From Antitrichia curtipendula (lineage: Eukaryota > Streptophyta > Bryopsida > Hypnales > Leucodontaceae): 64,000 nucleotides of DNA. The stretch covers positions 18,434,981 through 18,498,980 of the forward strand of contig OX579640.1 of assembly GCA_951230915.1 (NCBI GenBank), written 5' to 3'. Of this stretch, positions 191 to 39,119 are shown one piece after another. Every line of letters begins with the position of its first letter. Position 1 is the stretch's first letter. Both the position numbers and the translations under genes were made by a program. The notes under the pieces are model-generated. The model did no database searches. It had not been told where the DNA came from and was given only the letters and a program-made list of their open reading frames with translations.

Positions 191-615
191 ATCAGAGCGG
201 CCGCTCTGAACCTCTACGAATTCCATAAAAGGGATGACTAGATTATAGATTAGAGCGGCCGCTCTGAACTCGATTAATGTAGCCCAACTTCTCGGATGCG
301 AACAGGATCAGAGCGGCCGCTCTGATCTCATTGGACGTTTGAATTATGAAAATTGAAGAGGATCAGAGCGGCCGCTCTGAACTGTTGCCTGGTCGTCTGG
401 ACTACAGGAATTGAAGAGAATCAGAGCGGCCGCTCTGAACGTCATCAATGTGCATACCCCACATGGATGAGCATAGGTTCAGAGCGGCCGCTCTGAACCT
501 CATCATTGTGCATACCCACCATGGACGAGCACAGGTTCAGAGCGGCCGCTCTGAACTTCATCAATGTGCATATCCACCATGGATGAGCATAGAGGTTCAG
601 AGCGGCCGCTCTGAA
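191..615. repeat. Phased array of eight 20-bp palindromes upstream of ParB-methyltransferase gene 1
   Basis: Eight copies of TTCAGAGCGGCCGCTCTGAA (first base T or A; contains a NotI site) start at 191, 249, 307, 362, 420, 478, 536 and 596, so the spacing is 55-60 bp and mostly exactly 58 bp. The copy at 307-326 (ATCAGAG...CTCTGAT) is a perfect palindrome over all 20 bases. The first four spacers differ from each other, whereas the last three are clearly related (each carries a variant of TCAATGTGCATA...CATGGATGAGCATAGG). The array lies about 0.7 kb before the ATG of the ParB-methyltransferase gene. Copies of the same palindrome recur inside that gene and I did not see it elsewhere in the window. 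Confidence 0.95.
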
Positions 616-931
616 ACAACTGCAGCAAACGAGGATACAATCAAATCACCCATTCTAATCCACTACTAGAACAAGGACGGGCTAGAAGTACGACAGATCG
701 CAGGGTATCGTTCGTTTGGATATATCCAATGTCTAATAAGGCATAGGGATCACGAACTAAAAGTCACAAGACATTCATTTAATAGAAACGATAGTCATCT
801 AGACTAGCATAGAGTACCCTCACTAATCTAGGAACCCCTCCATCGATTAGCTAAAACTCGTTAGAATAGAAACCTACTAAATATGAATCCCTTCCAAAAG
901 AACCAATGTAAAAGTCAGAAGTCGCATACGA

Positions 932-1127
932 TTCAGAGCGGTCGCACTGAACCGTTGCGTCATTTCCTCGGTATATTCGTTGCACTAGTTCGGAAAGGAT
1001 CAGAAAGCCTGCTCTAATGAACTCTTCGGATAATGTAAGTTCTAAAACGCGCGCTCTAAGTTGGATTTCCGCTGACGCGGATAAAAGAACGTTATTGCAA
1101 ATTCCAATTTAGACCGCGTGGTCTAAT
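932..1127. repeat. Degenerate copies of the locus-1 palindrome
   Basis: A near copy at 932-951 (TTCAGAGCGGTCGCACTGAA) is followed by weaker ones near 997-1016, 1040-1058 and 1108-1127 (for example AGACCGCGTGGTCTAA). They keep the dyad but have lost the NotI core, so the array seems to extend, decayed, up to the promoter of the ParB-methyltransferase gene. The stretch 616-931 holds nothing else I can name. Confidence 0.6.
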
Positions 1128-1192
1128 TCGTACGAATTCTTGTGGACAGTGCCATGGAGTCCTTTTTGGAGAGCAAGCCACCACTCATAGGC

Positions 1193-1200
1193 TATATAAA
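1193..1200 (+). promoter_or_regulatory. TATA box of ParB-methyltransferase gene 1
   Basis: TATATAAA stands 101 bp before the ATG at 1,301. This is a good plant TATA box and would place the transcription start near 1,225-1,230, with a short GC-richer leader. The decayed palindromes lie just upstream. Confidence 0.6.
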
Positions 1201-1300
1201 ACGGCTGGCGCCTGACCGCGTGCACGAGTGCTAGAAAGCTCACATAGAGGAGAAAACTCCGCTGCAGTTGTTGGCGACGAAGGCCTTGTGGACGGTGGAG

Positions 1301-4300
1301 ATGAGCTACCATCACGACTCGCCTGTCTTCAATCTAGCGCTGGGATTTACGAAGCACGGAGACCCTAGATGGAAATCGTTCAAGGACATCATAGTCATTA
1401 ATATCAATGTGCTTCAGGAGGCCATTCTTATAGACGTAGTGAATGCAACAAACAGCACCTTCGATGTCATCGTCATCCGCGTAGAAGATGAAATGACTTT
1501 CTCCCACGAAAGAATAATCAAGAACTACGATAACGTTCCACCTCATTTCCAAGCCTTGATGATGGACACCAAATCGATATGCGAAGCACTAGGAGGTGAC
1601 TTCGTACAAACCGGCTTCGCTGTGAAGACGTACTTGAACAATGCAAACAACCTCCACATTGCATCGCTAACGAGTACGACTGACACGCAGGACGTAGGAA
1701 GCACCCCCATGGATTCACAAAACCGGCCCCCCAAGAAGTCAAAGAAGTCAGTAGGCTCCAATTCTGGAGCAGGCACCCATGCACGGCCTCCGGCGTCGTC
1801 AACTCTCGCAGGCGCCCCAGCCCCAGCAGTCGCTCGGGCCTCTGCGCCTCCTCCAGTAGGTGCCGCGGAGCCAATCAACGATACGGTTGGTGCCCGCTTC
1901 CAAGCGACTTCAAAACGAGGTGCCGTGGTGTCAGCCAACGTCATGGCTCCACCGCCATCCACAACCACTGCGTCTAAACCCAAAAAGTCGGCACGCCCCA
2001 AGCAGAAGGTGAAGAGGAAAACCAACCGTACCCCCATGGAAACATTGCTGGAGGAAGAAACGGAGGGCAGGCGTCGACGACAGCGACGGGAGACTGATGC
2101 CGAAGACACTGCAAGTGTGCCCAGTTCGTCCCAACAAAGCGATATCCCAGAATCCATCGAGGTGTCCGAAGAGGAGGCGCACAAACAAGCGATCAAGAAG
2201 GTAAACGGTCACTGGGTGGACAACCCGGAAACAATGCCCTTCAACAAATCCTCCGTTCCAGAGAAGCTCTTCGTCGAACTGGAAATCAAGAAGGAGCCTA
2301 GACGAAGTGACGAAGAAGAGGCAAGGAAACGCTTGAAGGCCGAAGCAGTGGCGAACAAGAAATTAAAGGAGCTCTCCAGCTACATGTACATCTTCGGGAG
2401 AGGAAAATACTTTGAGCTTGATGTGGACGACATGAGTCCGTGTGACGACGACTCGGGCATGATATTCAGGCCTTTGGAAAAGAAAGGTGTCATGGCTGTG
2501 CAGGAGCGAATGGTGAAGGTGAACTTCAACAAGCAGATCTTGACCGTGATGCCCAACACGTCGACGAGACCAAGGTGTTGGCAAGACTGCGTGAATGTCT
2601 TCCCCATGAAGATCATCAACGGCCAGCACACATGGAAAGCTTCCAAGGAAATCATCTCAGGGACAGCATGCGTGGACGACGAAGAGGTCAAGAAGCGAGT
2701 GCAGAAGTGGACATGCGAGATCGTTTGGTCAAATGAGAAGAATCATTTGCACACGTTGTCCTGCAAGTGCAACGATGGCAACGTCACCGGACCTTACTTG
2801 TCGTCCCTCCCGGCTACAATCAAGCATTGCCGATACCTCTGGCTAGACGCACGCAAGCCAGCGCAGTGCCGCAAGAACACGAGGGCGAAGGAGCAAGGCG
2901 AGAATTTCAAGGCCTATGAGGTAAGCAATTCAGACCGCCCGCTCTGAAGTGTTTTTGATTGCTATGCCGACTTCAACAATCGGCTTGTCTAACTTCAGAG
3001 CGGCCGCTCTGAAGTGATTTCATCCACAATTGTCCTCATCATACGCTTCAGAGCGGCCGCTCTAAAGTGATTCCTGTTGTATCGATATTCTCATCATACA
3101 TCGTTTTAATCGTGCAGGAGTTTAGGGAGAAGGCTGAGCAAAGCTTCGAATCAACCGGCGTGCTGAAGGGGCAGTCGAGAGCGTCGTATGACCTGGACCG
3201 GATGGGGGAGCTGAAACTCATCATGGCCTCGGAGGAGACTTGGTCCCTGTGGCAGAGAATATTTTCGTGTCACGAGTCGGGATCCCTATACGACATCGAC
3301 TCCAGTGGTCCCTTCAACGAAATCACGACGACCGATGGTAGCACGAAGCCGTATAAATTCCAACCCATCACCAACAATATGATGAAGAGTCTGCACGGGT
3401 TGGACGATTTAGCAGTCGGGGAGCTAGCTCAGAAGATCCTGGACGTCCCCCCAAAGGTGTACATCATAAAGAAGCCTTCGACATGGGCGAAGACGCTTCC
3501 TATCGCCGCGTGGTGCACAAACAGGAAGCACAAGAATGTGCTGTACAAGGAGTTGGTGGACAAGGGCAAGGATATGGGCATCATAGAAGCAGCCAGTGTC
3601 TTCCTCGAGAATGGGGACTTGGACCCCAAGGGCTGGAGGGACTATAAGGCCGCGTTGAACATCTGCGGGTTTCACATGTGGCACCTCCAAACAATCGATG
3701 TGGAGTACCTGAAGTCCGAGGTGCGGTCGGGCAATAAGAAAGACGAGCCCTCCGCAAGGTTGGTAAGGGCCTTGAATCGAGTCGTGAATAATACCGCGCG
3801 ATTCAAGTACGTCAAGAATTGCTCGCGGGCGAGTATTTGTCGACAGATTTGGGACGATTCCAACTTCGAGGACTATCTATGCCTTGAGAAGAGGAAGACG
3901 TGGTCTGTCCTCCGCGACGCCAACTCACCCGCCAACCTCCAGTTTTGTGAGGTAGGCATCATGGATCTCCGACTTTTCCCGAAGATCGAGAACATGGAGA
4001 TTAGCTATGGAATCAGGAAGATCGTGGAGGAGGTCGAGAGGGTATCCAAGTCCGTGATGTCGAAGAATGTGCACACGTGGATGTTGATCTTCAATTCCAA
4101 GCGGTTGGCTGCGGTGGATCAGCTTGTGAAGGAGTTCTTCCCGGATCACGCTATTCGGCGGGAGTGCAACTATGTGTGTGCCAAAGGCGAACCGGGCTTC
4201 AAGGACAGGAACAAGGACAAGGTGATGTACCTGCAGCGAAACATCAAGCAGTTCACAAACTCTGACATTGTGAATGCTGCGGAACGTGTGCCAAGACTCT

Positions 4301-7070
4301 CAGCAGAACAAGACATAGACCTCGAAAACGACGAAAGTCTGTACGCGACCCGTGAAACCTGCCGTCACGATAATCCAAAGATTAGCTCGAAGTACGAACT
4401 TCGGTATGAAGTCTACCTCCGCTTCATCGACAAGTTCTGTAGAGATCAAGGGACCGCAATGCTCGTCTTTGCTGGGGCAAAGGCCATCTCCGCATGCACG
4501 GTAATTACCGACGACTCACGCATTTATATACAGTGCTTGTCCAGATTTATTTGTGCATCTCATGTGTTCGGAGTCATTAATGCCATTTGTGCTTGCAGAT
4601 GTTGTCCCGCAGCTCCGTCTCCCTCATGCTTGCCACAGAGAAGTCCATGGCGCGTCACTCGACGCACAACCGCATTGGAGCCCAAATGTGGCCTGATGTT
4701 CTGGTCCCGGGGTGGAAATTGAGGTACACCTACGAGGACCAGGTGAAGGCGAAGAAGGGCGTTGCCGCATTGGAGGAGGAACTCGCCCCCAACGCAGAAA
4801 CGTCGAGGGCGGACGAGCCCCTGAACATGTCCAATGACGATGAATCAGATGATGACGGAAACCGACAGGACGATGACGTCGACGAGGACAATGACCAAGA
4901 GGAAGACGATGCCGACGAGGAAGACGATGAGGATGATGAGGTCGGACCAAATCCATCAACGTCGGTTCACAATGACGTCATCGATTCTGTCGTCGGGGGG
5001 AGGTCCGCGCAGATGCCCGCAGAAAGCGATGCTACTGTGCAGTCGGAGCGACCTGACGACTCATCTCCCTCTCGGATGGCAGTCCTAGGCACGATTCAGA
5101 GCGGTCGCTCTGAATTGGTTCAGCCGCTCTCCCCAATGGAGCCCCCCCTCGTCCCTGGAGAAGATGAAGTGCAAATAGTCTCGCTTGCTGTGGAGTCCCG
5201 AGACAACCTGCCTTCGTCCGAGTATGACCAGAGAGGCTTGTCTGATCCAGGTTCTCCTCGATCCCCCGATCCCCCAAGATCTCCCATCCCTGTAGTTCAG
5301 AGCGAGAGCTCTGAACTGGACTCTCTACTACCGCCCTTTCATCCCCCCCCTCCAACTCCTCCTGTCGCAGTTCAGAGCGACCGCTCTGAACTGGATTCCC
5401 AGTTTTCCATTTGCCATCCTTCCTCTCCGCTTGCTGCAGTCCTGAGCGGGCGTTACCATACACCATCGCTTTCCCCCCTCTCTGGCTCTCAGTCTGTCAC
5501 TCCCCCAAACCAGAGAGCGCAGTCCAAAGCCGTTGTCTCTCTTTCCTTTGATTCCCCCGCTCCCGTCGGTGAGGTTCAGACCGGCCGCTCTGAAGTGAGT
5601 GCCACTGCTAACGTCTTCCGGGTTCCCGCTCCTCGTGCTCCGACGACGCCATCGACTTCGGCTCACGCAGAGCATGCACTTCCTCCGCCTTCCACCAGAA
5701 TGCAGATTGAAGATCTGCAGACGCAGTTGGACCTGTTGAAGGTCTTCCTTTCGAACGAGCAGCATGCGGATCTGGAGAAGGTGAGGATGGATGTCAGAAG
5801 TTCCCCACGGAATTCTTCAACGGAGTCTAGGGCGCAGAGGATTGGCAGGACGAGGAGTGTTTTGCTGGAGTTGAAGTCCCTTCGCCCGGCGTCGAGTGTT
5901 GCCGAGAGCGAGAGTCTTAAGAAGTTGACAGTGGTACAGGTGACCATCGACAACTTGATGTCAGAACTCTCTCCCCCCACCAATGAGGAATTGGCATATG
6001 CGGCCCATACTCGGGCGATGCAGAAGAGACTCGAGGAGGCTCTGAGGAGTAGCCAGAACAACCCGATTGATTTGGACGAGGAGGATGACGAGGTTCTGGT
6101 GAAGCGTCTGGCCGAGGCGGCGTTGAAGAGGGAAGAGTACAATGCGATGGCCAAGGCGGCGGCTGCAAGCGGATCGACTTCAGACACGGGGACCGCAACT
6201 CAGGCAGGGGCGAGCTCGAGCGTGGAGGCGGAAGAGGCAAAGCCCGACGTCATGGACTCCAAGGCAAACATCAGCCTCGCGTTCGTGGAGAGGATCTCGG
6301 AGCGCCAGAGGAAGAAGCATTCGGGGGTGGTGGAGAAGTGTACCCAAACCATCGACCTGCTCAACAAGCAAAACGAAGAGATGGAGCGGCAGGAGCGGGA
6401 GAGGGAGCGGCAGGAGCGGGAGAGAGAGCAGGAGAGGGTGCGGGGAGAGGAAGAGAAGAAGGCCAAGCGGAAGGCCAAGAAAGAGAGGAAGGAGAGGGAG
6501 CTGGCGGAAGAGAGGAGGCAGCAAGCGGAGAGGGAAAGGAAATACCAGTTGGAGCAGCAAGAGCAACGGGATTTGATCAAGAGCATGAAGGAGAGCACAG
6601 ATAGGATGATGGCGAAACCGATCCAGTCCACGCCCTCCCCTGCGGTCGCTCTTACTCCACCCCATCCGATCGAACTCCAGAACGTGTCCGACGTGTCCAC
6701 GACAAACTCGGCCTCCGCGACGCAAACCGCAGCGTCAGGGCTACGGATGCTGGCTGCCTTGGACCTTCCCAATACCTCGGTGAGTGTCACTTGTGAACCA
6801 GAATTGGATGACCTGGCCCTCAGTCAATTTCCTTTTGTGCATGTCACTGAACCCGTGCATCGTGCGAGCATGGACGACGATGACCCGTACAGCCTAGAAG
6901 TTGACTTAGGAGATGTAGAGGCCTCCTTCGCTAACCTCACCCAACAATATGCTCCCGTGCAGGACGCAATCGTTCCGGTGCAGTCCCGTGCGAGGGTTGA
7001 GGAGCAAGCTCCGGTGGATTCACCGCCCAGGGATGACCAAGATCCAACTGTGGGTAACCCCTCCACATAG
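1301..7070 (+). CDS. ParB-like / beta-class DNA-methyltransferase-like protein, gene 1 (apparently intact)
   Basis: Three exons fit with phase-0 GT-AG introns: 1,301-2,920, 3,118-4,500 and 4,599-7,070, giving about 1,824 residues. The N-terminal 150 residues are unassigned and are followed by a Ser/Pro/Lys-rich linker. Residues about 360-450 resemble a ParB/DGQHR fold (FELDVDDMSP, then INGQHTW at 439-445). Exon 2 resembles a beta-class N6/N4 methyltransferase with motif order IV then I: MDLRLFP (822-828) in the place of DPPY, a hydrophobic strand WMLIF, then VFAGAKA (990-996) in the place of FxGxG, and a second strand ending in an acidic residue at the start of exon 3. The catalytic DPPY is not kept, so activity is doubtful. 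Exon 3 adds an acidic tract (about 1080-1116), palindrome-encoded repeats, and a long Glu/Arg/Lys coiled coil (about 1565-1675). No internal stop was found. I chose ATG 1,301 because it is the first in frame after the TATA box. A strong GTGAGT donor at 6,780 could instead splice the gene to the phosphatase behind it. Real gene: fairly sure; biochemical function: inferred. Confidence 0.75.
2929..3066. repeat. Three palindrome copies inside intron 1 of gene 1
   Basis: The 197-bp intron (2,921-3,117; donor GTAAGC, acceptor GTGCAG) holds copies at 2,929-2,948 (TTCAGACCGCCCGCTCTGAA), 2,994-3,013 (perfect) and 3,047-3,066 (last bases changed), 65 and 53 bp apart. The spacing resembles that of the upstream array. 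The palindromes make up about 30 percent of the intron. Confidence 0.92.
4501..4598 (+). other. Intron 2 of gene 1, inside the methyltransferase motif I region
   Basis: A 98-bp phase-0 intron with donor GTAATT and acceptor CTTGCAG separates FAGAKAISACT from MLSRSSVSLML. The related gene at 25.6-29.5 kb has a phase-0 intron at the matching place (CAG before ATGAAT), and the MULE-borne copy has an intron within the same motif. This conserved position supports common descent of the three genes. Confidence 0.8.
5038..5594. repeat. Palindrome copies within coding exon 3, all in one reading frame
   Basis: Copies at 5,095-5,114, 5,296-5,315, 5,371-5,390 and 5,575-5,594, plus decayed ones near 5,038 and 5,440, lie within the open frame. 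They encode VQSGRSEL-type peptides (IQSGRSEL, VQSESSEL, VQSDRSEL, VQTGRSEV). All distances between copies (57, 201, 75, 69, 135) are multiples of three, so every copy is read in the same frame. The surrounding peptide is Pro/Ser-rich and looks unstructured. Confidence 0.88.
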
Positions 7071-7319
7071 CTCCCATCTTTTTAGTCTGTCGTCGGGTGG
7101 ACGTTGTGTGAGGGTAATACAGCGGGTCGATCGAAGGTCGTCCCTTTGAGTCTGCCCAAGCATAAAGCCTGTAGTGACACCTAGCTATAATAGTTTGTAG
7201 ATGTAGCTTGTGAACCATTCTAGAAAGAACCACTCGGTCTGTAAAAACATTGTACATTACTTGTAATATATTGGATTCTTTTTTGTAATCATATTTGGGT
7301 GACTGCGGTCCATTTGGAT

Positions 7320-8863
7320 ATGTGTTTGTCTTTCCGAGTAAATCGGGGCATTCAAATTGCATTCTTTGCATTTTCGATTCAGGATGACAATGCTCTCTCG
7401 CTGCGCCACAAGTCCCCGTTGCCCACAAGCGGTCCGGATGCAACGCCCCGTCGATCGAGTACCGGCTCTTCGCGCCATCCAATCGCAGTGGAGTCTCCGG
7501 CTATGCACGTTCAAGTCGACGCTTGCATGGATGCCGACTTGGGCCCTCCGATCCCTTCCGAGGTCAATCCCGCAATCACACTAGAAGTTGTAACGGCCAA
7601 GCGACAAGCAGCGCCTGCCCCTTCCACGGATGCGAAGAAGGTGAGTCTTAATTTCCTTGCAACACCTCTCCTTGCTCACTATAGGCGACCCTTGGTCAAT
7701 TAGATTGTCTGCACGTGATGGGCATGGATCTCTCGTACAATTAGGATCAAGGCGAAGAGGAAATGGGGGGGACAGCTCTCGGTTACCATGGCACGTCTTC
7801 TCGGGTGTAGAGAGTCACATGTTAGATATTGTGGACTCCATTCGTTTGTCATAGAATCGACTTTGAACAAGGGGTATAGTGTACGCAGGCACCGTCGCCA
7901 CCGCCCGAGCCACCGGAGCCGCCTGGTCCCGTGGCTTTGCCATCATGCAGTTATCTCTTGATCTTCGAATTAGAGGGGATCTTGAGCAGAATTGAGAACA
8001 TCGGGCACATCCTGCCCAATCCGATGCCCATGGAAGGGACGGAGGCGGATTACCAACCAAGGAGGCGCCATGTCTTTGACGAATACACCCTTCACTGTCG
8101 CCCGGACTTGCGGGAATTTCTCAGGAATGTGGCGAAGAAGTTCCACGTATCCGTGTGGACCAGGCTACCGTCCAAGGTCGCCAAGTCCATGGTGGATTTC
8201 CTCTTCCGCGGCATAGAGTGTGGAACCATGCGCATCCTCGCACTGGAGGATTGCACCTCCATTGTCGAGAGACGAGCGTGGAGATTTTGTAAGTGCAGAC
8301 CCCTCCCGCATCTCCCAGAATTACCCTGTCCCGCGCACCCCGTCCATTCGGAATCTGATCCGGACCTCACGGAAGACACCTTTGTCCAGTTCTCCGAACA
8401 CCCGGGAGGGCAGCTGCGGCTCAAGGTCCTCCACAAGGGCGTCTGGGACAATGAGTTGTTCAGGTCGAACAACTTCAGGGCGAACTCGACGAACACGTTG
8501 CTCATCGATTCCTCCCCCGAGAGCAGCATCCTCAATCCCTTGTACAACGCCATATTTCCCTTGTCATACGCAGGCAGCGACTTTGATTCCATCCTCCACG
8601 GGTCATTGTGCCAATATCTCCACAAACTGTTGTTGTCGGGTCTTAGCGTGTCGCAATTCGTCTCTCAAAACCCGTTCCTATGGGAGCTCACGGTTCCCCT
8701 AAGACAGACGCGTCTGGGACTCAAAGTGCGCGCGTGTGCTAGATGGCAGGACAGATCCCTCCTCCTGGAGTATCCAGAGTTCGTGGGCATGTACACTAAA
8801 ACCGGGAATGATTTCTTTGTCGCTCGAAAGGCCAAAGAGAAAAGGGAATTAAAAAAAAAGTGA
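7320..8863 (+). CDS. FCP1/NIF (HAD-family) phosphatase-like protein 1 with altered catalytic motif
   Basis: Exons 7,383-7,640 (or from an in-frame ATG at 7,320) and 7,889-8,863 join in phase 0 (donor GTGAGT, acceptor TACGCAG). After a Pro-rich linker the sequence follows the NIF/FCP1 fold: LLIFELEGIL in the position of the DLDGTL motif, then RPDLREFLRNVAKKFHVSVW, and near the end TLLIDSSPESSILNP in the position of the DD/NSP motif of CTD phosphatases. The two catalytic aspartates of DxDG are both replaced by glutamate (ExEG), so catalysis is doubtful; it may bind phosphoprotein without cleaving it, or be under little constraint. It lies 313 bp behind the ParB-methyltransferase gene, and a phase-0 donor at 6,780 plus the phase-0 acceptor at 7,381-7,382 would fuse the two into one product. 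A Lys-rich tail ends the protein. Confidence 0.7.
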
Positions 8864-9426
8864 TGCCCAGTTGTGGAATTTGTGCGTGTACAGACTCGTC
8901 GTCGCATTGGCGTTTCTGATCGGTGGGCAGCCAACACTTCTCGACCGCTTCTGAGGCGCTCGAAGCGCCATCGAACCCGGATGTCGGAGGGAGTGGGCTC
9001 CTCGGAAGGCTGCGTGGCCTTGGAGGAGGCGGGCGCGGATATCACCTCCGCTCAACTCTGACGAGGAAAAATAAAACTCGATGGCCACATATATTGTGAA
9101 GGCAAGCTCTTTCCTACCATGGATGGTTGCATGATTGAAGTAGAGTCCGACGGACAACTTGGCATAGGGTTGGACAGATCTTTATCTCTGTCGCACTGAC
9201 AGTTTAAAATGGATAGCAACTGGTTGTCCAAATAGTCTGTTGCTCTTTCTTTCCACTCTCCTTGGAGATTGTCATCAGGAAGTCCTCAATCCTAACCGAA
9301 GAATTGTAATCGTTGGCTCTATTGTGCAGGATTCTTGGTCCTACGGTCGTTTAGGCCAAGATGGTCTCTTCTCGGCGCAACAATTGAATAAAACACTTTT
9401 GCAGGTTATAATGTCCCTGCTCACGA
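8864..9426. other. Downstream region of locus 1, no gene seen
   Basis: Short open frames here (for example 8,873-9,061) have no recognisable domain and no neighbouring exon signals. I read this as the 3' end of the phosphatase transcript and spacer DNA. Confidence 0.4.
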
Positions 9427-9446
9427 TTCAGAGCGGCCGCTCTGAA
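9427..9446. repeat. Isolated perfect palindrome copy downstream of locus 1
   Basis: TTCAGAGCGGCCGCTCTGAA is present without change, 560 bp after the phosphatase stop codon. It marks the downstream limit of palindrome occurrence, so locus 1 spans at least 191-9,446. Confidence 0.93.
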
Positions 9447-18320: not shown

Positions 18321-18323
18321 TCT

Positions 18324-25050: not shown

Positions 25051-25057
25051 AAACTCA

Positions 25058-27171: not shown

Positions 27172-27192
27172 ATTCACCTCCATCCAAGGTGG
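27172..27192. repeat. Gene-2 palindrome copy in intron 1
   Basis: ATTCACCTCCATCCAAGGTGG lacks only the last arm bases of the upstream palindrome. It lies in the 182-bp intron 27,057-27,238. Confidence 0.85.
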
Positions 27193-28624
27193 TTTTTCTA
27201 TTCAATGACTAACTTGTTTACATTATCTTTGAGTGTAGAAATTTGACGTTGCTTGCCAGCTGCGGTTTGGTATGATTGACATTAAGAAGCAACAGAGAAC
27301 CAAGTCTGGCAAGCCCGTGAAGGTTGACATTATAAACAAGCTCAAAATTATTACTGCTCCAACAGATGTCTATGAGTTATACTCTGAACTCATTTCCGCT
27401 GCCTCAATGGGAGAGTTGATCGATCCGGAGTCAAAAACTTTGTTCAAGAACACCAAGGGTTGGGTTCCGGAGAAGGATGGCATCATCAGTAAAGAGTTCT
27501 TTAAATGGCTTAGCAACCTTTCCAACGCAAGCCTCAAGCGACTTGCAAAGCATCTATTGAAGAAGCCTGACCGACCAGAGAAGAAGAACAAGAGAATGGA
27601 GGATTATCCAAAGGTGACATTTAAGAAGCTGAAGAAGGTTGTACCAAACTGTTGTACCTATCGACAGTGGTGTGAAAGGGGCAAAAGAAAGCAAATTATA
27701 AAGGTGCAGCTCAATGATATGAAGCCCGAACTTGATTTGTTAACCACGACGGGAGAGACTAAGAAGGACATGTGAAAGAAATTCAAAGAAGATTACAAGA
27801 TCACGGACGCTGCCATGCATGTCCTCATCACAGGTCCATCTGAGATATTCTTCACTACATCGAAGTTTTTGTGTAACATCAACAAGAGCATTAGAGAATT
27901 GTCACCCTATGCCGAGGAATTTTTGAAGGTCTTCTTGAGAAATAAAGGAAGATTTACAATTTCCACCGGTCAAGCATTCTACCGTCCATTCAACGAAAAC
28001 ACAGACGACTTAGCGAAGTGGGCTAGAGGTGATTGGGATCATTTGGATGTCAACCGTATAAAGATGGGATTCATGGACTTCAGAATTTTTCCAAGCAACA
28101 AGGAGGCTGGAGGGATGGCAACTCCATATTTTTATTCTTTCTTGATGTTGCTGATGGGGCTAAACAATCCTGCAATTCTTGATATCCCTGTGTGGATGTG
28201 GTTATCTGGAGATAAGAAGACCGACTCCAGTCTCATACACCATTTTTACCATTCCGTATTTACAAATAATTATGTCCTTCATCACGCAGAGTACATGCCG
28301 GCGAAGTACGAGCGACTTGAGGATCTTGAGTTGAACAAGAAGAAAGTCAAAGCCAATGTCCACATCATGTTCCTCATTAAGAAGAACCACAAGGCAAAAT
28401 GCAACTCCTTGCCCACAAAATTCAAGGCTCCGAAAACGCATGAATTCCTTACCTCGAGAGCTTACAATGAAATGCAATACCGAATCTATGAGAATGAATT
28501 ACGGATGGAGTTCTACATAAGCATTTTGGCTTTATATTGCAATCCTGAAGACGCAGTCCTTACAATATATGGGGGTGAAAAAATCATTTGTGCGGCGTGG
28601 GTGAGTATGTTGTTCTTTCTAAGT

Positions 28625-28647
28625 ATTCACCTCCATTCAAGGTGAAT
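28625..28647. repeat. Gene-2 palindrome copy in intron 2
   Basis: The full 23-bp dyad ATTCACCT-N7-AGGTGAAT (inner bases CCATTCA) is intact in the 120-bp intron 28,601-28,720. Confidence 0.92.
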
Positions 28648-29631
28648 TGACATGTTTGTTTGTTCTTGGAATTTATTATCTAAAATATGTTATTCTAACT
28701 ATTTTTTCATTTTCTTCCAGATGAATTCGCTGATAAATTATATCATTGGGGATTCTGACGAGATGAAATCCTATAGTGACCTCTCGCAATTGTCTGTGGA
28801 CTTGGACAAGGCGGATTTCCTTCAGTTAGGGTACTATGTTGATGAAGAGAACTATCCAAAGATAGTCGATAATGACACCTCGTCATCCGGTAGGGGCAAG
28901 AGAGATCGTATTCAGTTGGTTGCTCAAGATTCGGAGCACGACATGATTGACCAAGGAGAAGGTGACAAAGTCCATGCGATCAATCCTCCTGCGTCCCAAA
29001 AGTTTAGCACTCTACATGCTGGAACAATTGCCCCTTTGAATCCACCAGCAAGTGAACGTCGTCGTTCATCGTTCACTTCTCCTTCCTCTTCTTCAGAGCG
29101 TGATCGAGGAAAGATGAAGTTGGATGAAACAGAAGATCTTATTATGAAGGATTATATGAAAATGATGCATGAGAGGATGCAGAAGTATGAGGAGGAACAA
29201 TTTGAGGAGAGGAAGCGTTCAAGGATTGAATATGCTCAGTTGATGACTATCATCAAGGGAACTCTACCTTCTGGAAACTTTTCCCTTCAACTATTGAGAT
29301 GAGTGAGCCGGCCCCTCATGTGTCGTTAGAGAATCGTGTATCGGTATCTTCAGGTAGTGGAGCTCATATTCTTCCTAAGACATCCATGGAACTGGATCCA
29401 GCATTGCATAGTCCTTCCGAGGCGCTGCAGCAATCAGATGACCTGTAGACTCCTGCAATGAGTTCGGGTGTTGGAAATGAGGAAGTCAATGATCCCCAAG
29501 GTTCATCTCAGTGAACTCTCACTGTAATGATTTAGGATCTTTTGAAGTTGCGCTATTTTTGTTTTTTTAAGTATGATTTTTTTTACTTTTACAGGATTGT
29601 TTTGTATTGTTGAATGTAATTTTGAAGATTG

Positions 29632-29641
29632 CATTTACAAA
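29632..29641. other. Left target-site duplication of the MULE
   Basis: CATTTACAAA directly precedes the left terminal repeat and is repeated exactly at 41,520-41,529 after the right one. Ten bases (or nine, if the outer C belongs to the element end) fits Mutator-like elements, which duplicate 8-11 bp. Confidence 0.9.
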
Positions 29642-29975
29642 CAGGGTTGCTATTCTGTGAGCTTGCGAGCGTGAGCCTGGGAGCCTGGGAGCATACAGTT
29701 TTCTAGACTGAATTCTAGGGTGGGACCTATGACCGTGTTTATGAAAAATACAGCAGTAGGATAGAAATTCTAAAATAATGTTCGGATTTTGGATACCTAA
29801 AATGATTTTAACCCTTGAGGGACACTCTATGGCTAAATATTATCGAATTTTACTATACTTGAAGTTATAAAACGATGAACTAATTCGGTTTAGGGTTTAG
29901 TAATTGCGCCTCCTTGGAATTCTACAGTGGATTTAGGGAATTATAGGGTTTAGGGTTGGCCTAAATCTTGCATGT

Positions 29976-30162
29976 TGGGCCGCGATGATCCTAAACTACC
30001 GGAGGATGGTCGAGAGGTACTTAAACCAAATAATGTGGTTGCGGGTTTGAAACCTGGTAGAAGTAGTTTCTCTAGCTTGCGGGAAATCAGCCTCTCTTCC
30101 TGACAGACCCTTTGCAGTGTGTTTCCTCAACTCGCTTGTTTCGAAAATAAAAAATAAAAAAT
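29976..30162 (+). mobile_element. tRNA-derived SINE inserted in the MULE
   Basis: A 187-bp body is flanked by the exact 10-bp duplication TCTTGCATGT (29,966-29,975 and 30,163-30,172). It contains a polymerase III A box (TGGTCGAGAGG, 30,007-30,017) and B box (GGTTTGAAACC, 30,044-30,054), and ends in an A-rich tail (AAAATAAAAAATAAAAAAT). The A box resembles Leu/Ser tRNAs. It is not a functional tRNA gene: the acceptor and anticodon parts do not fold properly. Confidence 0.85.
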
Positions 30163-30490
30163 TCTTGCATGTACATAAAAAATGGCAGTACATCATATGA
30201 ACTGAAGTAATTTGGATCCCTTTCCACCCAAAAAATTAAAAGCAACAAAGCTCTCTTTGTTTCTAACCAATTTATGCAAATCAAGGGGCGCACCCCCTAA
30301 AACAAGTAGTAAATGACTATAGATACAGTCATTTACCACAATCAAAACCATGACAAGATATTGACAATACAAATTCAGATCTGAGGACCATGAGCTAGTA
30401 GCTATATTGGCATCATTTTTCAAATGCATAAAGGAAAGAGTAGAAGATGGAGAAATAGATCAAACAAGAATGATCTATCTCAAAACAAGA

Positions 30491-33400
30491 TCACGTAGAC
30501 GAAGAAGACATTGAGTGAGAATGAACACTTCTATCACTACTAGAGGTCTCCTCATCGGCTTCTTCAGCTTCCACATCTACAAATTCCAACACCCTAGGGT
30601 CTAAAGGAGTAGCCTTATTCCGTGTAGGGAGAAGGCACTGGGATGCAAATTGAACTGCTAACGCCTCGGCATAGGGGGGAAGTAGGTACGGTTGCTCCGA
30701 ACTAGGAAAAAACCCGGGCGAAGAGTACAATGGCCAGTGTTGCACCTCATTACTAATCATGCTACATGGAAAAAAAAAGAGTTATAAATGTCTTAAGATA
30801 GGCCAAGGTGAAATGAACATGAACAAGTGCAAATTCAAAAAGGACTTACTTACTGAATCGAGATTTCTTGATAATATGTTGAACCACGACCTCCTCTGCA
30901 TCTGGATCGTCAGAGGCCAATGTCACAGGTGCAGGTGTTACAGGAGCAACATGAACTAGACGAATGAGAGGAGCCAACATTGCATCAAAGATGGCCTTGT
31001 CTTCTTCTAGGGCTATAATGTGCCTGTCTAGAAGCCTGCAAGCATGGATTGAGGCCCCTGAAACATGAACATTGAATTGAAATTAAAATTTGACTACATC
31101 AAGCGCAACAGCTTTGACATGTAATTTGCATCATTAACACGTGAAGGGTTGGTTCTACAATGTACCAATTGAAGCCGTACAATCTAGAACCATGTCACCC
31201 GGGATAGATGACGCTTCAATGAACATGGCCATAAATTGAGGGTCCTTCTCACGCGCCCCTCTCCACGGAGTACCCTTGTCCATGGCCATCGTTTCCGAGG
31301 TAGTGAAGTTCTGCATAATGTCGTCACGCTCAACATCCACCCCGAGTGCAAGCAATGTCGGACAGGGCTGGAATGCAAACTTTGAAGGACCAACGTTCGG
31401 CAAGTTCCTCACAAACAACTGAATTCCGAAACGCAACGTCTGCAAAATAAAAGTGATCAATGTCACTTCAGCTCTTACCAGAATGTGAAAAATATTGAAG
31501 TGAAGCTAAGAACTTGGCACGAGAGGGGACATTACCGTCAATGAACGATCCAAGGGCGACACTGAGTGCAAGCGGTTTGCCCCCCACCATTCCTTCCGTA
31601 ATTTGAAAGCATAGGGATCTGCATAGCTGCGGATGTCAGCTTGGGCTTGGGCCCTGTAAGGATAAATAATAAGTAGTGCCCCATCATCCTGTAAATGTCC
31701 ATCGGCGAATTCGAAAAGAGATTCAAGCCAGGAATCGAAGTGCTGATTCCACTTTGGAATCGCAGAAGGAGGCTTGGACACAGTAGGAACAGGTAGCCCT
31801 TCAGGCATGTCGGCGATGATGAGGTCCACCCGTGGCGACGTACTCCGAACTCCTTTGAAGGATCGATCTTTATCCGCTTCGTGCTGCAATTAAGAGGAAA
31901 TTCAGTATAATACACAAAAAGACAACAAGTGAGTGAAAATGACATTGTAGATGAGAGGAGAGGGCTGCACCTTTTCCATGAATTTTAGTATGTCATGATA
32001 AAGCGGAGGCAGTGGATCAGCAAGAACTGCCGTTAGAGACGAGTTGCAAATGAATTCATCAATGGAGATGTCTGTGTCATTGACCAAGTCAATGACAGTG
32101 GGTCCACGAACTAAGTCCGCTTCCGTGAGTGCTAATCGTTCCGATCCACGCTTCGAGCCTTTAGAAATGGATGTCTGCAATCGAGAACCCTGATCCACGA
32201 CAGATGAACCGGCTATCGGTTGCTTTGGAGTCTGCTCCACATTCTTCTCTTTAGACGTCACCTTCACCTTCTCAACAATTTTGAACTTCTTCTTCGTCAC
32301 TCGTTGAAGCGCCTTGTCGACTGCCTCGGAGTTCTTCACAGCAATCTTCTTGTCGGCCTCCTCCCTCCTCTTCATTGCCTTTGCTCTAGCATCCTCGTCC
32401 AAGCCATTGAACTCGTCGTACTCAGGCACAAGTTCTTGGGAGTCAATGGAAGGTTTCAATCTCTCCTCCGGTAGAGGTGTGAACTCAGGAGGGCAGTCCA
32501 AATACCATGCTCCGGACTTCAAGTGAGCACTTGTCTACCACCGCAACTGTGAAGGAGAAAACATGCAGTGGTCGGTGGAAACGTCTAGCCATGTACTTAG
32601 AAATGGAGGCAGGTCGCGCTTCGCAATTGCTGCTTTTGGAAGCAGCTCGTACTTGAAGTACCTGACAAGGTAAATACATCTCAGAGTTGTGATATAAACG
32701 AGATCCCTAGAAAACGAAATTTGATTGCATTTGAAAATAATCAGTTCAAATAAAAATTTACCTGAATATTACTCGCTTGACCACGAGGTCAGAACCCTTG
32801 TGCTTTGAAAACAAATCAGACTTTTTGAAGACATCGTGGCCTCTGAAGTGAGAAAGGAATGAATGATCCCACAGTCGGATTCTCCAGCCCTCGATGTATT
32901 CAGCTAAAACCTCGGGTTCTTGAGGCGAGTCCATGGCCAAATCCAGATTATCCTTCTTGACGATATTGTCAAACATTTCTGTTGCTGCATCCTGTATCTG
33001 AACATTCAAGAGATGGAAGCGGTTTTAGGTAAGCATGAACATGCAAGTCAACTCCTGTAGAGAGATTGAAGTTACGAATTCAAATGATGTAGAGAACAGT
33101 GGGGAGATAAAACACCAGTTGAAGTCACTCACCCCTGCGTACCAACACGCCTTGACTAAGAAGGCTTTTAAGTCATTTTCACCCACGGGCTTCATAGGAA
33201 ATCGACGAGCCTCTCTAGTTTGGGTGGACGAGTTCCACCAACGTAACCACATGATTTTGTGCTCTGACGATACATTGCAGGTAGCAATCATCTGCAACTT
33301 GTCGAGAGTCATCTCCGGGATAGTATTTGTACACCAGTGGCGCTCAATCTTCATAGAATCATTGGAAAAATTAGAATTACAAATACATTCAACAACATTG

Positions 33401-35325
33401 AGAAATTGAAAATCTGTCAAAATGAGAACTCACCTCATCAAGCCACTCCTTCCCGAGACTTGGATTAGCCACAGCAGTGAGCTTCCCCAACTTTTTGGTC
33501 AAGACAGTTGTCTTCTCTTTCGTTCCTAGTCTCATTGCAGCCAAAACTCTATTCTCTGTCTGCTCCTCCACTGGCGTGTCTTCCTTATACAACCTCACTG
33601 CAGTATCTGCTGCGGCAGCTATTTCATACTGAAACGGAAAATGGATAAGACAAGTGAGATAAGAAAACAATGAGAACTGAAGAATATATGTAACTGAAGT
33701 GTACTTCAAGGGGAACAGTGACACTTACACAATAAATGAATGCTGTAAACACCTCTAACGACATGCTGTACCATGACTTCCTCAAATTCTGAGTGCATTG
33801 TAACATCTCAGAGGCACTCAAGTGATCGGCGAACTTATCTAAGGGCATGACTCCGTATTTGCGGACCCGGTACAAGGTGTGCACCAAGCTTGTCCGGATA
33901 AATGAATTCTCAGTGTATCTGTAATTACAAATCAAACAATTCGTCAGAATCCCTTAGCTTATAGGAAAACATGACAAAAGAGTCACAAAACAGGAGGAGA
34001 GAGTTGTGCACATACTTATTTATGTCGTGCATAACATGCATGACTTCTCCAATCCGCCCCTTTGTCTCTAATAATATAGAGTCAACGGAAACATGCCAAT
34101 CTCGGTCGTTATCATGGTGATGAGAAATATATGATGACCAAGCCAGAAGCCGATGGTTACCATCGCATACAAAGAACTTAGAGTTCTGGAGATGCTTCAA
34201 CTCCGGCGTAGAACACAAAATTCCATTAAACACATCATTCTCTTCATTCCAAAGAGGTCCCCATGCAACCTTCTCACTCTCTTTGACGTGCTCCTCCTCC
34301 CCCTGTTCATTTGTAATTGAAACATAGAAGACGGCCGACCCATCCCTGTACCCAAAGACAAATTCTTCAGCTAGCCTAGTCAAGTCAGACTTCAATGCTG
34401 GTCTAACCATAGGCATCGCAGACAGGCGACACAATGGAATTCGGAGTCGAGATACGGAATGGGGCTTCATTCGGAGACTTGAGATGGACGACACCGAATT
34501 CACTTTCTGGGATCTACGTAGAGCATCTTCCGAAGTGAAGTCATCCACTAGTTCTACATCATCGGCCTCGGATCCGTCTCCTTCCATGTCTTCAGCCATT
34601 GATATGTCTGGCTGATCAGGGACAGGCGATTCAACATTCTCAGGTTCCATGTCCACCTCAGGATCAGGAGTAGCCTCGGGCAGAACCTGGAAAACAGTAC
34701 AGCACTCAAAGTTAATGTGGTCCGCGGCATCACGAAATATAGGATCACGTCGGGGGAGCAAGCTGGACGCTCTCGGCGCCGAGAGGGACTGGTCACCCCC
34801 TAAACCCTGATGCGCAAACAAACTGAAAGGCGGGACAAAACCAAAAGAATGTCACCTTGACCCCAGCACCCGTCCTAGTGGGATCACGTCGGGGGAACAA
34901 GCTAGACGCTCTCGGCGCCGAGAGGGACTGGTCACCCCCTAAACCCTGATGCGCAAACAAATTGAAAGGCGGGACGAAACCAAAAGAATGTCACCTTGAC
35001 CCCAGCACCTGTTCCAGTGGGATCACGTCAGGGGAGCAAGTTGGACGCTCTCGACGCTGAGAGGGACTGGTCACCTCCTAAACCCTGATACAAAAGCAAA
35101 TTGAAAGGCGGGACGAAACCAAAAAAATGTCACCTTGTTGCCCTGGACTGTCAGGGTTTCTTCGGCGTCGCTCGCAGGCTCGGCCCGATGCGTTTTCTGG
35201 GGACTGCTTCTGTCTCCCGCCCCTTCGTTGTTCTTGCGGCCGCCATCCTGCTCGTCGTTGACGCGATCTCCGTCGCGGCTGCTTCCTTTTGGAGTTGCAT
35301 TCCTGGTCGCTGGCTTCCGCACCAT
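30491..35325 (-). CDS. MULE-borne ParB-like / beta-class DNA-methyltransferase-like gene 3
   Basis: Eleven minus-strand exons join with consistent phases: 35,325-35,134, 34,686-34,016, 33,918-33,729, 33,628-33,434, 33,348-33,133, 32,997-32,762, 32,661-31,971, 31,883-31,536, 31,439-31,166, 31,057-30,850 and 30,761-30,491 (1,163 codons). The ParB-like domain is the clearest of the three: LRIPLCRLSAMPMVRP and then CDGNHRLLAW (DGNHR at 239-243). The methyltransferase-like half has IIADMPEG in the DPPY position (D822), the strand LLIIYPYRAQAQ, and IPGDMVLDCTASIG (motif I, D999) followed by RHIIALEEDKAIF, which closely matches the typical RRFIGIEIDPEYF strand. Motif order IV then I is that of beta-class N6/N4 enzymes. 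A Lys-rich stretch (about 640-720) may hold a nuclear signal. One TAG (32,535-32,537, codon 609, probably a former CAG) interrupts exon 7. The rest is open, so inactivation is recent or the stop is read through. Confidence 0.75.
32535..32537 (-). other. Single in-frame TAG in gene 3
   Basis: Between ...SPSQLRW and TSAHLKSGAWYLDC the minus strand reads TGG TAG ACA. The frame is open on both sides for hundreds of codons, so this is a lone nonsense change, best explained as CAG to TAG. Confidence 0.85.
34742..35135. repeat. Three 139-bp tandem repeats with a GC-rich palindrome in intron 1 of gene 3
   Basis: Units starting at 34,742, 34,881 and 35,020 are exactly 139 bp apart and nearly identical. 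Each holds a 16-bp dyad: CTCTCGGCGCCGAGAG at 34,770-34,785 and 34,909-34,924 (perfect), and CTCTCGACGCTGAGAG at 35,048-35,063 (two changes). They fill the intron between exon 1 (ending 35,134) and exon 2 (starting 34,686), right at the 5' end of the gene. Each unit ends next to a GTGACATT sequence that could serve as a splice donor. Confidence 0.93.
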
Positions 35326-36807
35326 TGTTTCAGTCTATTGAGGAAGTGAGAAAGGATGAGCAAAACTGATGCTGAGGTAGCGGGAACTCGCAAAACACTA
35401 AACCCTAACTCTAAGAACTACCTCCATAAAAGTGAACCAGACGCGCACCGAGCTCCGTTTCGTTCGTCTTTTCCCACGGACCTCTTAGAATTAGGTTTCC
35501 CAGAAAGTTCCTTGTGCATGAAGACTATCCCGGTTCTAAGAACATCAGCTTATAGAACAGGAAAATGGAACGCTACTTAATCCCGATTCTATGAATTGCG
35601 AGACAATGTGTGATTGTTAGAATTGACCCAAGTTATAAAATTTGGAACAATGCTAGGGGCATCTTTTTCCTAATGTAGGTATCATCGAATCTGTATTCAA
35701 GGGTCACTTTCAACATTGCATGATAATGATCATGTAGGAAACGCTTGGTTGATTTCTAGTTCTAGAAGTAAATGTAATTCAAAAAGCAAATTATGATCAT
35801 GCAATCATGCAGGACTTACAGAATGGTCGCTGGAGGTTTTGGGCGCTTTGTTGTCTTCGATGCAGGATGTCCCACATAGCAGGCCACTCTCTTCTTCGTC
35901 TCAGTACTTTGCCTTCTCAATCGTGCACGGGTTAACTCCTTTCGTGATGAGAAATGGGACCTTCCTCTCTTCTTGGATTTCCTCGCTTTACTCAATAAAC
36001 TACTGTCGGGTATGTGTCGTGCTAAAGGCATGAGACTAATAGTTCATATTACTTTCAGAAAGTAATGACCCTTCCAAAATCCTCTAACTAAGATGTCCAT
36101 ACATATCCTCATGACCAATTTGAAAGTCCTACTCTCCTTTTGTAATTTCATTTAGACTCAGCGCCTCTGAACAGTATACCACAACTGTGAACCTAAACTT
36201 CGGCAACCACAACTGTGTTCACATGTTATATCTAATACTTGTTTGTCAGTTGGTAGTGACGGCCAGTTCCAAAAGCTATTGAAATCAATCACCCTAGATT
36301 TAGTCCGTTTTCAAAATCTTCCTGTCATCATATATAGGTCAGCTACATTTTTTATGATTTTATGGGACAACTCTACAATGATGCCGTGATGTATCATGGG
36401 ATGGGGGGGAAAGGTCCTATGCCTGCGTTCTGATAGCAAAGTAGGAGGTGTCTACGTGGACTCCTCTCTACGTGTATCCCAAATCTATAGACATGTCACA
36501 TGGTCCTTGAATTTTGAATTACTCTCATTTATGATTTAGGTTAGATACTGTCTCGTTTTAAGAATACTCACTCCTAATATACATTTGGGCGGCGATTTTA
36601 GACATCCAAATTGGGGGCTAGTGATAGTACTGCATCATTATACGGAATGAAGACACATTATTCCTATCTTTTGAAGTTCCCGTTGTAAGACAAGTACATG
36701 CCCGCATATTTTCTACGTCTGGATCACTTCATTCAGTAGGAGTTTTTGTTTTCTATGGTTGCTGTAAAAGTGTTATCATTTCAAGTGTGTCCAAGTTTGC
36801 TTCGTCA
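35326..36807. promoter_or_regulatory. Divergent intergenic region between the two MULE genes
   Basis: About 1.5 kb separates the ATG of the minus-strand ParB-methyltransferase gene from the ATG of the plus-strand transposase gene, so promoters for both must lie here or in unseen leader exons. I see no clear TATA box pair, and the short open frames have no recognisable content. Confidence 0.45.
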
Positions 36808-39099
36808 ATGGCCACCATTAGAGCAGATGGCCGTGAAATTCCATTTGTTCTGCCTTTAGGAGAAGGAGGGTATGCTATAGTGTCTTCTCACCTCCTTTAT
36901 GTTCGTTTCGGATTTCTCCAATCTAGTATTTATGTTGAGGAGGAAGTCATGTCTGATTTGGGGCACTTAATAGAGTCCATCCATATGCCAAAGTTAATTC
37001 TAGAGGACGGTCATTGCCGGCACCTCCGTCGAGGGCGTAATAGGGTATATGGTTTGCCTTCTATCATGCAGGATACTTCTACTAAGAGATTGCCACGGGA
37101 GTCAGACCACTCCACTGTTAACATGCCGTTTGTAGGCCAAAATATAGGAACTTCTGTGGACAGTGATCGCTTTACAATTGCTACAACTCCGATTCAACTT
37201 GTCCGAGTGAAGCTAGAAGTTAATGTTCCTGTGATAGATTTATCTAGTGAGTTGGAGGGAGAGTCGCCTAGTCAACCAGGTCTTGCAACAACGCTTCCTA
37301 GACGTGTCTGTAGTGACGTACAGGAAACAACATCCGGTAGGTACTCCACGCTTACTACTAGTCCTGCTTTGTCCACTCACTCAAGACCACCAACTCACCC
37401 AAATATTTCAATTGGGCACAGTATCGTTGGGTGCCTTCGCAAACTAGCATCTATTCGCGGATCTAGGAACAAGGTTGCTGCATTAGATTATGATTTGCTC
37501 GACCATCAGAAAGTACAGTACCTTCCTGCAGACTTTGATGGAAACGTAGTATTCAAGTTGCCTTCTCTTCGTGCTCCGTCTTCATCATCCGCTGCTGGGA
37601 ACTTACAGGGTATGGATAAATGATACGATGGGCATGCATGGTGTCGGACCATTACATCCAATATCCATAATCAAGATAGCTTGAAATTCCGAAAATCATC
37701 TTGTACATGTCATTTGATTTGTAACAATTCCGATTGTGACTATTTTAGGCGATCTTCCAAGCAGAATGAGATTGAATGGTGTGGATATACTCCTACTCCT
37801 TTCTATGTTGGTGCACTCTCTCCAAAGGATTCTACTGTTCTTTGCAAAATATGCAAAAGTTCACCCCACTGCGTCAGTACTTGTGATGCTAGAGTTTATT
37901 ACGTTTATAGTGATACTCCAGGGATGACGAGAGCGTGCTTCCATTTGGGTAATCACATGCATCCTGTTGCTTCTGGAACCTGTAGAGAGTCGTTAGACAC
38001 CATTTTGGAGCTCATTGCAGGTGAAGTCTTAAAAAACCCTAGTGCCACTAACTCAGCCATAGCCCTTGCAGCTAGTAAACAATTTTTGGAGAACTACTTC
38101 ATACACAACGGTGAAGGTCCAAAGGAGTTGCTGCGGGGGAAGTCGCTGGAAGATGTTATGGATAGGTTCCAGATCCTTAGTTCTCCGAACATCCGTAACA
38201 CTATTTCTTCATTTCGTAGCACTGAAAAAGGTGGGGTCATAGATAGCATTATGAATATGAAACGAAATCTAAAGTTTGAATACATTCATGAGAGCATTTT
38301 TCCTGGACAGGGAAAAGAAAAAGTGTACTTGTTTAAGATGTTGGTCGATGGACCTGGTAGTGGGGTAGACTTGGTGAAGCGTATGCAAGTGGGAAGAGAT
38401 TTGGAGAACGCGTGGCTCATGTTTGATCACGTAAAACGAGTAAAGGATTGGACCACCATGGCCTGCCATGTCTATGACACAGGATGTAGAAAGGTCATGA
38501 CAATCGCCGTTTATGACATGCAATCTGAAGATACTGAGATCCAGTGCATTATGTGGAGGTTACTAAATGATGTCATGAGACGCAACGGCGTAGTGAATAC
38601 AAACTTCAAGGGCTTCATGGCAGATAGCGCGCAAGCAAATTGGAATGCCGTTCGAATTGTATACGGCACGGGGAACCCCAAAATGGAGATGGTTAATCGC
38701 GAACGAACATGTCTTCTACACTGGAGTACTTCGTTGCACCGGCATACCTAGAAGCTCATCAAACCGGATATGCAACACCAACATATACGTCTATGCAAGC
38801 AATATAAAGACTCAATCACTATGGAGGAAGCTGAGATAAGGTATTTGGCCATTCGATCTTGGTGGTTATCATCCGGGGCAGCCTCAGAAGATGCTCTGCG
38901 TGAATTGGAGTTGTGGCTTGCTTTTTGGCATTTCCGATATCGCCAATGGGGAGGCTTTATGCAAATGGTATGTTTAGATCCCTCCTTCAGTTCTGCTGCT
39001 TTTGTTCTTTTGCACTATCACTTTGAGATGGCTTTCTCTGCTACGAAATTATTATTACGAAAAACTATGATTGTGATCAAATCGGTAATAGGATGCCAT

Positions 39100-39119
39100 A
39101 CCTCTCGGAGCCGAGAGGT
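39100..39119. repeat. MULE palindrome copy in the transposase intron
   Basis: ACCTCTCGGAGCCGAGAGGT has 9-base arms around two central bases that do not pair, and shares CTCTCGGnGCCGAGAG with the palindrome of the 139-bp repeats 4 kb away. It lies in the intron 38,968-39,239 of the transposase gene. Confidence 0.9.

Follow-up and report, generated by a model that had tools for sequence, protein, structure and literature searches.

Lineage-specific palindromes accompany repeated, predicted ParB-type genes in the genome of the moss Antitrichia curtipendula

Three ParB-like genes and their palindromes

The window analysed here is the whole 64,000-nucleotide stretch of contig OX579640.1 (positions 18,434,981 to 18,498,980) of Antitrichia curtipendula, and it holds three genes for predicted ParB-like proteins (genes 1, 2, and 3), each accompanied by several copies of a palindrome of its own (P1, P2, and P3, respectively). 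Across the genome, genes of this kind are numerous and, in nearly all lineages sampled, are accompanied by dyads that change from one protein clade to the next, a pattern suggesting that the encoded proteins are likely to recognise sites on their own elements.

Gene 1 (1154-7070, + strand) is composed of exons that extend to 2920, from 3118 to 4500, and from 4599 to 7049 or 7070, with intron boundaries set, as throughout, at splice sites judged by eye, and its ParB-like domain covers about 2243-2920. The ATG at 1154 is the likely start from resemblance to the relatives P0004 and P0005 and places a TAG (1232-1234) in frame, while reading from the next ATG (1301) meets no in-frame stop. Gene 2 (25617-29302, + strand; exons 25617-27056, 27239-28600, and 28721-29302; in-frame TGA at 27773-27775) is homologous to gene 1 (blastp 4e-20 across 686 columns). 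Gene 3 (30491-35325, - strand; 11 exons in frame, with a single in-frame TAG at 32535-32537) carries the ParB-like motif FFVCDGNHR in exon 2 and an N6_N4_Mtase-like stretch near its C-terminus. It lies with a transposase-like gene (36808-41072, + strand; likely start 36808, in-frame TAG at 38749-38751) inside an inserted DNA transposon (29642-41519) that has terminal inverted repeats (TIRs), recognised by eye, and is bordered at 29632-29641 and 41520-41529 by a target-site duplication of 10 bp, CATTTACAAA; this 10-mer has one further occurrence in the window, at 53602. Mutator-like elements (MULEs) combine TIRs with a target-site duplication of 8-11 bp, and the inserted element displays this combination (10 bp, the TIR match being by eye). 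No Pfam match to a MULE transposase domain was found among the pieces of the inserted element that were searched, and a SWIM-like CxC/CxH motif near 40850 of the transposase-like gene was seen by eye only.

P1 (TTCAGAGCGGCCGCTCTGAA) has 17 sites at up to three mismatches in a scan of the 64-kb window, all within 191-9446, for a chance mean of 0.00. Specifically, eight copies with 0-2 mismatches form a 5' array (191-615; spacing 58, 58, 55, 58, 58, 58, and 60; here and below, the sites are assigned no strand), a single weaker site with two mismatches follows at 932-951, three sites (2929, 2994, and 3047, spanning 2929-3066) lie in intron 1 of gene 1 (2921-3117), four P1-type sites (5095, 5296, 5371, and 5575, spanning 5095-5594) are found within the exon 3 open frame, all in one frame, and an exact site occupies 9427-9446. 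The exon 3 palindromes encode Q-S/T-x-R/S-S-E, and similar positions hold P1-type sites in the copies L006, L009, and L022. P2 (ATTCACCT-N7-AGGTGAAT) has eight sites at 25058-28647 (chance mean 0.47, shuffle maximum 3): six copies of the form WATCACCT-N7-AGGTGAAT, spaced 67-68 bp, constitute the 5' array of gene 2 (25058-25418), one site with two mismatches lies in intron 1 (27172-27194), and an exact one in intron 2 (28625-28647). P3 (CTCTCGGCGCCGAGAG) has four window sites (chance mean 0.12, shuffle maximum 2), namely one in each of three 139-bp repeats in intron 1 of gene 3 (34742-35158; sites at 34770, 34909, and 35048, the third with two mismatches) and one with a single mismatch in an intron of the transposase-like gene (39102-39117).

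A de novo search of the whole window for recurrent dyads with 8-bp arms returns P1, P2, and P3 together with two minor dyads (16300/16727/47428 and 60198/60371), and ten Markov shuffles of the window return none. Moreover, the palindromic cores are better conserved between array copies than the linkers that separate them: pairwise agreement is 0.95 for P1 cores vs 0.36 for linkers, with core exceeding linker in 28 of 28 pairs, and 0.90 vs 0.64 for P2, while the values for P3 (0.92 vs 0.75, from only three repeats) say little because two of the three repeats are near-identical along their whole length. A helical phase shared by the arrays was considered and rejected, as the spacing corresponds to ~5.5 turns for P1 and ~6.4 for P2. 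The preliminary description of this DNA had reported palindromes at gene 5' ends, in introns, and in exon 3 of gene 1, and the window scans bear it out, the sites being real and above chance.

Genomic distribution of the palindromes

The genome searched comprises 400,189,583 bases in 303 contigs and contains 428 exact copies of P1, 2614 of P2, and 157 of P3, compared with 0 for each reversed control. The P1 check covered 41 of 50 listed places, namely those within fetched regions (the nine others were left out), and all 41 sites fall in elements: 30 are spread over five elements that carry gene-1-type ParB genes, and 11 are in copies of a miniature inverted-repeat transposable element (MITE) of ~310 bp that carries three P1-type sites 104 bp apart. 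The gene-1 element, for which one end only (13418) was reached, terminates in a TIR (13396-13418, - strand) that is one mismatch from that of the MITE, which makes the P1-bearing MITE a probable non-autonomous relative of this element. The P2 sites listed, 50 in number, all fall in three clusters on C1, each with a ParB match (7637729, 30310815, and 36827724) no more than ~16 kb away by coordinates, and of the 50 P3 sites listed, 48 have a gene-3-type ParB exon within 5 kb. From the locations of these checked or listed sites, the view of the palindromes as generic genome repeats is rejected. In collections of viral and other genome contigs, from which records near the genome of the window were excluded, neither a relative nor a P1 site was found.

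The link between sites and ParB-type genes put forward in the preliminary description thus holds beyond the window for the sites checked or listed, which are in or near such elements rather than scattered. Conversely, its statement that each palindrome is private to its own locus has to be revised: with 428, 2614, and 157 exact genome copies, P1 present on a MITE, and near-identical dyads in sister clades, a palindrome is private to an element family instead.

Further features of these elements were recorded. The P2 clusters hold a second array, spaced 87-88 bp and 12-16 kb from the ParB match. At C1:25366228-25370586 (L023, L026), the gene-1 element has additional open frames behind a P1 array with a period of ~87 bp; ahead of the second open frames of this element, a P1 array lies at a distance of about 0.7 kb. 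Two open frames in this interval match DUF7869 just below the cut-off and are perhaps the transposase of the gene-1 element. By eye, 4-bp repeats are visible at the ends of several MITE copies; the Sola superfamily is characterised by a 4-bp target-site duplication and a Sola transposase.

Dyads of the gene-1/2-type paralogues

The gene-1/2-type family numbers at least 470 first-look candidates, 150 of which were scored. From the match lists, 16 paralogues were picked by hand across identity bands rather than at random, and for each of them the 5' side and the region that follows the ParB exon were fetched. With a dyad defined as recurrent when its core is repeated at least three times, recurrent dyads are detected de novo in 12 of the 16, and 20 Markov shuffles of each never give more than one. 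Among control tiles lacking ParB genes, two of 27 passed, one of which overlapped the gene-2 array and was dropped, leaving one of 26 (Fisher 1.9e-6 vs 12 of 16). The remaining positive tile holds the array before the gene at 60738, where two 173-bp repeats (60163-60510) with a CCGTCCGA-N4-TCGGACGG dyad stand ahead of a gene at about 60738-62038; array and gene may belong to a further element family that has sites of its own.

The dyads differ by clade. TTCAGAGCGGCCGCTCTGAA belongs to the gene-1 clade and its 75% sister, TTCAGAC-N6-GTCTGAA to clade C218, and TTCACCT-N7-AGGTGAA to the gene-2 clade, while the other clades have TTCAGCGCG-N3-CGCGCTGAA, TTTAGCGCG-N3-CGCGCTAAA, TTCAAGTCG-N3-CGACTTGAA, and ATTTAGGT-N4-ACCTAAAT; L032 and L040 hold fewer or weaker copies of the dyad of their own clade. 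Placement was compared at 19 loci (the 16 paralogues, window genes 1 and 2, and one 75% relative). Upstream sites of the own clade occur at 18 of the 19 loci at up to three mismatches and at 17 at up to two; behind the end of the ParB match, a site of the own clade follows at +9 to +258 bp in 18 loci at up to three mismatches (16 at up to two), and inside the ParB match none was found at any of the 19. From their position and the splice donors at several exon ends, we infer an intron 1 location for the rear sites of the paralogues, matching that of the rear sites in the window.

On a maximum-likelihood tree of the 19 domains, mapping the eight labels (the seven dyads plus "none") takes 8 changes, the minimum being 7, while shuffled labels take 13.6 on average and as few as 8 in 0 of 200 shuffles; near-identical copies inflate this agreement and long branches are flagged, which leaves as independent content seven pairs of clade and dyad, two of which are single-row. 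The cross-scan of dyads against loci is block-diagonal, save for sister clades and three single C218-type matches in the C5a clade. The expectation of one dyad per clade, with dyad and protein trees in agreement, is accordingly upheld by the 12 of 16 paralogues, the cross-scan, and the tree.

The gene-3-type family

The gene-3-type family has at least 1292 candidates, of which 150 were scored and five paralogues were picked by hand. The 97% and 85% paralogues carry 8 and 12 P3 sites, respectively, at up to three mismatches and with a period of about 139 bp, and up to 12 sites per paralogue of this type occur within 1.9 kb on the 5' side of the ParB exon. The 72% paralogue has the variant TCTCGGCYCCGAGA at 107 bp, the 70% paralogue the variant CTCGGCGCCGAG in six places, and the 62% paralogue three 3-mismatch P3 matches only. 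Among these five paralogues, P3 thus seems to drift along the gene-3 lineage. At C1:41.45-42.12 Mb, fourteen gene-3-type ParB exons of equal score, with one TAA each, stand tens of kb apart, and this cluster is a recent amplification.

Protein predictions

The gene-1 domain adopts a ParB/Srx fold in a predicted structure model, with KorB and Noc among the fold matches. The assignment is a predicted one. Pfam gives no ParB match for genes 1-3, sequence searches of the PDB return nothing convincing, and DUF1015 matched three of 38 gene-3 relatives (best 0.061). The motif FFxCDGNHR is invariant in 38 of 38 aligned gene-3-type rows, and gene 3 shows no detectable relation to gene 1 or gene 2, profile alignments of the gene-1 and gene-3 families being negative too (hhalign probability 0.1). 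The whole gene 3 protein as query retrieves 0 relatives, and its ParB exon alone 198.

All three genes had been described as methyltransferase-type in addition. For gene 3 this stands weakly, as its N6_N4_Mtase match (E 3.2e-5, 24.4 bits) is under the curated cut-off of 26.7 and the protein reads DMPE where a DPPY-type motif, expected in N4/N6 methyltransferases, should be; for genes 1 and 2 the label is not supported, as Pfam finds no N6_N4_Mtase domain in them, and the model of the methyltransferase-like exon 2 is too poor for a fold call because its predicted local distance difference test score (pLDDT) is 40.5.

Other features of the window

An open frame for a NIF-type phosphatase (7880-8860, + strand; Pfam NIF 1.3e-9) lies 3' of gene 1 and is perhaps its 3' exon. 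A second NIF-type piece (42401-43216, + strand; Pfam NIF 1.1e-5 for 42401-42889), the putative 3' part of the gene-2 locus, is interrupted by an in-frame stop at 42890-42892, and because the gene-3 element separates it from gene 2, the gene-2 locus would once have been ordered like gene 1 and then split by the insertion. Together with the stops listed above for gene 1 (if it starts at 1154), gene 2, gene 3, and the transposase-like gene, such interruptions imply that the window copies of the ParB-like genes are probably not functional, while numerous genomic copies are stop-free across the searched domain. Direct repeats of ~650 bp, 80% alike, flank the gene-2 locus (21340-21984 and 44665-45305), and the same repeat is present twice, 87-90% alike, within the gene-1 element on C1. 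Clusters of GTCCG/CGGAC motifs lie at 40.4-40.75, 53.3-53.5, and 57.3-57.5 kb, and a decayed hAT-type element (DUF659 1.1e-33, Dimer_Tnp_hAT 1.8e-7) with GC-rich repeats on either side occupies 53801-56866.

Interpretation and alternatives

Four things are read directly from the sequence: the palindromes, where they lie, how they sort with protein clades, and the presence of P1 on a MITE with the same TIR. To account for them, we propose, with confidence that is evenly balanced, that repeated and likely transposon-borne genes for predicted ParB proteins carry palindromes of their own lineage, which are likely bound by their own protein, and that this protein acts on its own element alone; we infer that the copies beyond the gene-1 and gene-3 elements are transposons as well. 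In this scheme, the encoded protein would dimerise on its own dyads and would perhaps load and spread as a nucleoside triphosphate-dependent clamp, like bacterial ParB, with the fixed-spacing arrays raising local occupancy. The bound protein would displace or prevent host silencing of its own promoter and of the non-autonomous kin, and the joint drift of dyad and protein would generate a private code in each lineage. By analogy with VANC or VirB, the purpose is probably anti-silencing, which fits because of the promoter-side placement, the sites on non-autonomous kin, and the lineage-private codes. A broader formulation, held more tentatively and somewhat short of even confidence, is that orthogonal ParB-site pairs have diversified within one eukaryotic genome, where at least seven clades of one family and a second, sequence-unrelated ParB-like family would have their own dyad operators (with outer TTYA half-sites in the first family), the proteins serving as clamps by which no elements or MITEs but their own are licensed.

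Several observations weigh against this proposal. Anti-silencing is argued by analogy, and this anatomy also suits a function in transposition or in repression. All three window genes are interrupted by an in-frame stop, gene 1 only with the start at 1154. Two of the 50 listed P3 sites are lone (C2:33901762 and C3:369476), and the gene at 60738, preceded by a dyad array, has a weak kinase match and no ParB match. Among the gene-1/2-type paralogues, L028 lacks upstream sites and has a C218-type dyad only behind its ParB exon, while L035 has no site behind the exon and two 3-mismatch upstream sites only, with nothing at up to two mismatches. In the gene-3-type family, the rule of at least three core repeats is satisfied by three of the five paralogues and not by gene 3 of the window, and L046 has a variant dyad and L047 3-mismatch matches only. 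Lastly, sister dyads overlap (C5a with C5b, gene 1 with C218), and protein distance is not significantly correlated with dyad distance across the seven clades (rho 0.26; in a Mantel test, 711 of 5040 permutations are as high). The idea of self-specific recognition advanced in the preliminary description is therefore sustained in part, through dyads that differ by clade in agreement with the protein tree, and not in the correlation between protein and dyad distances.

The same anatomy may be read differently. The dyads could be transposition sites, with the ParB-like protein a targeting or synapsis factor that works with the transposase on arrays marking the DNA to mobilise: the P1 MITE consists of little beyond its TIRs and the three spaced P1-type sites, a P1 array precedes the second open frames of the gene-1 element, and P3 occurs also within the transposase-like gene. 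However, the recurrent placement is the 5' side of the ParB gene and the stretch behind its exon rather than the termini, and up to 12 sites are packed within 1.9 kb 5' of the exon, so we regard this role as unlikely. Self-methylation, in which the protein binds the dyads and marks its own element with N4-methylcytosine or N6-methyladenine, draws on the N6_N4_Mtase-like stretch of gene 3 and on the self-binding and modification proposed, in the text of PMC12477816, for the ParB and methyltransferase protein of a Sola-1 element. Yet the gene 3 match is below threshold with DMPE at the expected motif and genes 1 and 2 lack any methyltransferase match, which renders this explanation quite improbable here.

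KorB and ParB autoregulate, and a protein that represses its own promoter through operator arrays, as a form of copy control, would agree with the arrays upstream of the gene and with KorB and Noc among the fold matches; self-repression has no need, however, of sites behind the exon or on MITEs, and families of at least 470 and 1292 candidates do not suggest tight control, which makes it slightly more improbable still. The dyads might also have no relation to their own protein and represent the targets of a host factor, RNA or DNA hairpins, or inherited by-products of tandem repeats, since near-identical copies share everything and the P3 repeats look like recent duplications. Conversely, the P1 linkers have diverged far while the cores are kept, and dyads of different sequence take equal positions across seven clades and in a second family; this last explanation appears the least probable of all. 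Recognition of the dyads by their own protein, probably for anti-silencing, is the reading that we favour.

Relation to known systems and significance

An algal transposon accessory gene with ParB-like and N4/N6-type methyltransferase domains is described in PMC12477816, from Sola1-1_Ec32 of Ectocarpus, with relatives in green and red algae; the gene is located in a giant DNA transposon (21.5 kb). By that description, the algal and moss elements are alike in bearing an accessory ParB-like gene, and the self-binding idea is stated there; in contrast, no named binding site was seen there ("palindrom" has 0 occurrences in the main text), whereas in the moss the sites are found and differ by clade, and moss genes 1 and 2 have no recognisable methyltransferase. 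A survey of the ParB fold that includes eukaryotes (PMC12704722) has 0 occurrences of "transpos", "plant", or "alga" in its main text, and no earlier report of the sites was found in the open-access literature searched. ParB-methyltransferase accessory genes and the self-binding idea are thus already in print, while the sites and their clade-by-clade diversification appear to be new.

VANC of the Arabidopsis VANDAL elements is described as a transposon-encoded, sequence-specific protein that recognises short motifs in tandem repeats of the non-coding DNA of its element, with motifs that differ between related families (PMC5735166, PMC10398659), and in these accounts it resembles the moss system proposed here in being transposon-coded, family-specific, and directed to its own short repeated motifs. 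The VANC21 motif, however, is nine bases long, and "palindrom" has 0 occurrences in the text of PMC5735166. Bacterial ParB-parS, Noc, and KorB share the predicted domain fold and the dyad sites near the gene, whereas the moss genes are eukaryotic, contain introns, and can each be accompanied by as many as a dozen sites or more. VirB, as described, is a ParB-superfamily protein that relieves silencing; unlike the moss proteins, it is bacterial and plasmid-borne and acts against H-NS.

If the proposed recognition is true, a transposon accessory system first noticed through its proteins gains from these data the DNA counterpart that it lacked, in the form of candidate sites, clades alike in design and different in sequence, and a MITE that bears such sites. 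It would become testable how selfish elements evade host silencing without harm to the host and how specificity shifts jointly in a protein and its site. This moss would also provide a ParB-site system in a eukaryote, from which orthogonal DNA-binding pairs could be drawn.

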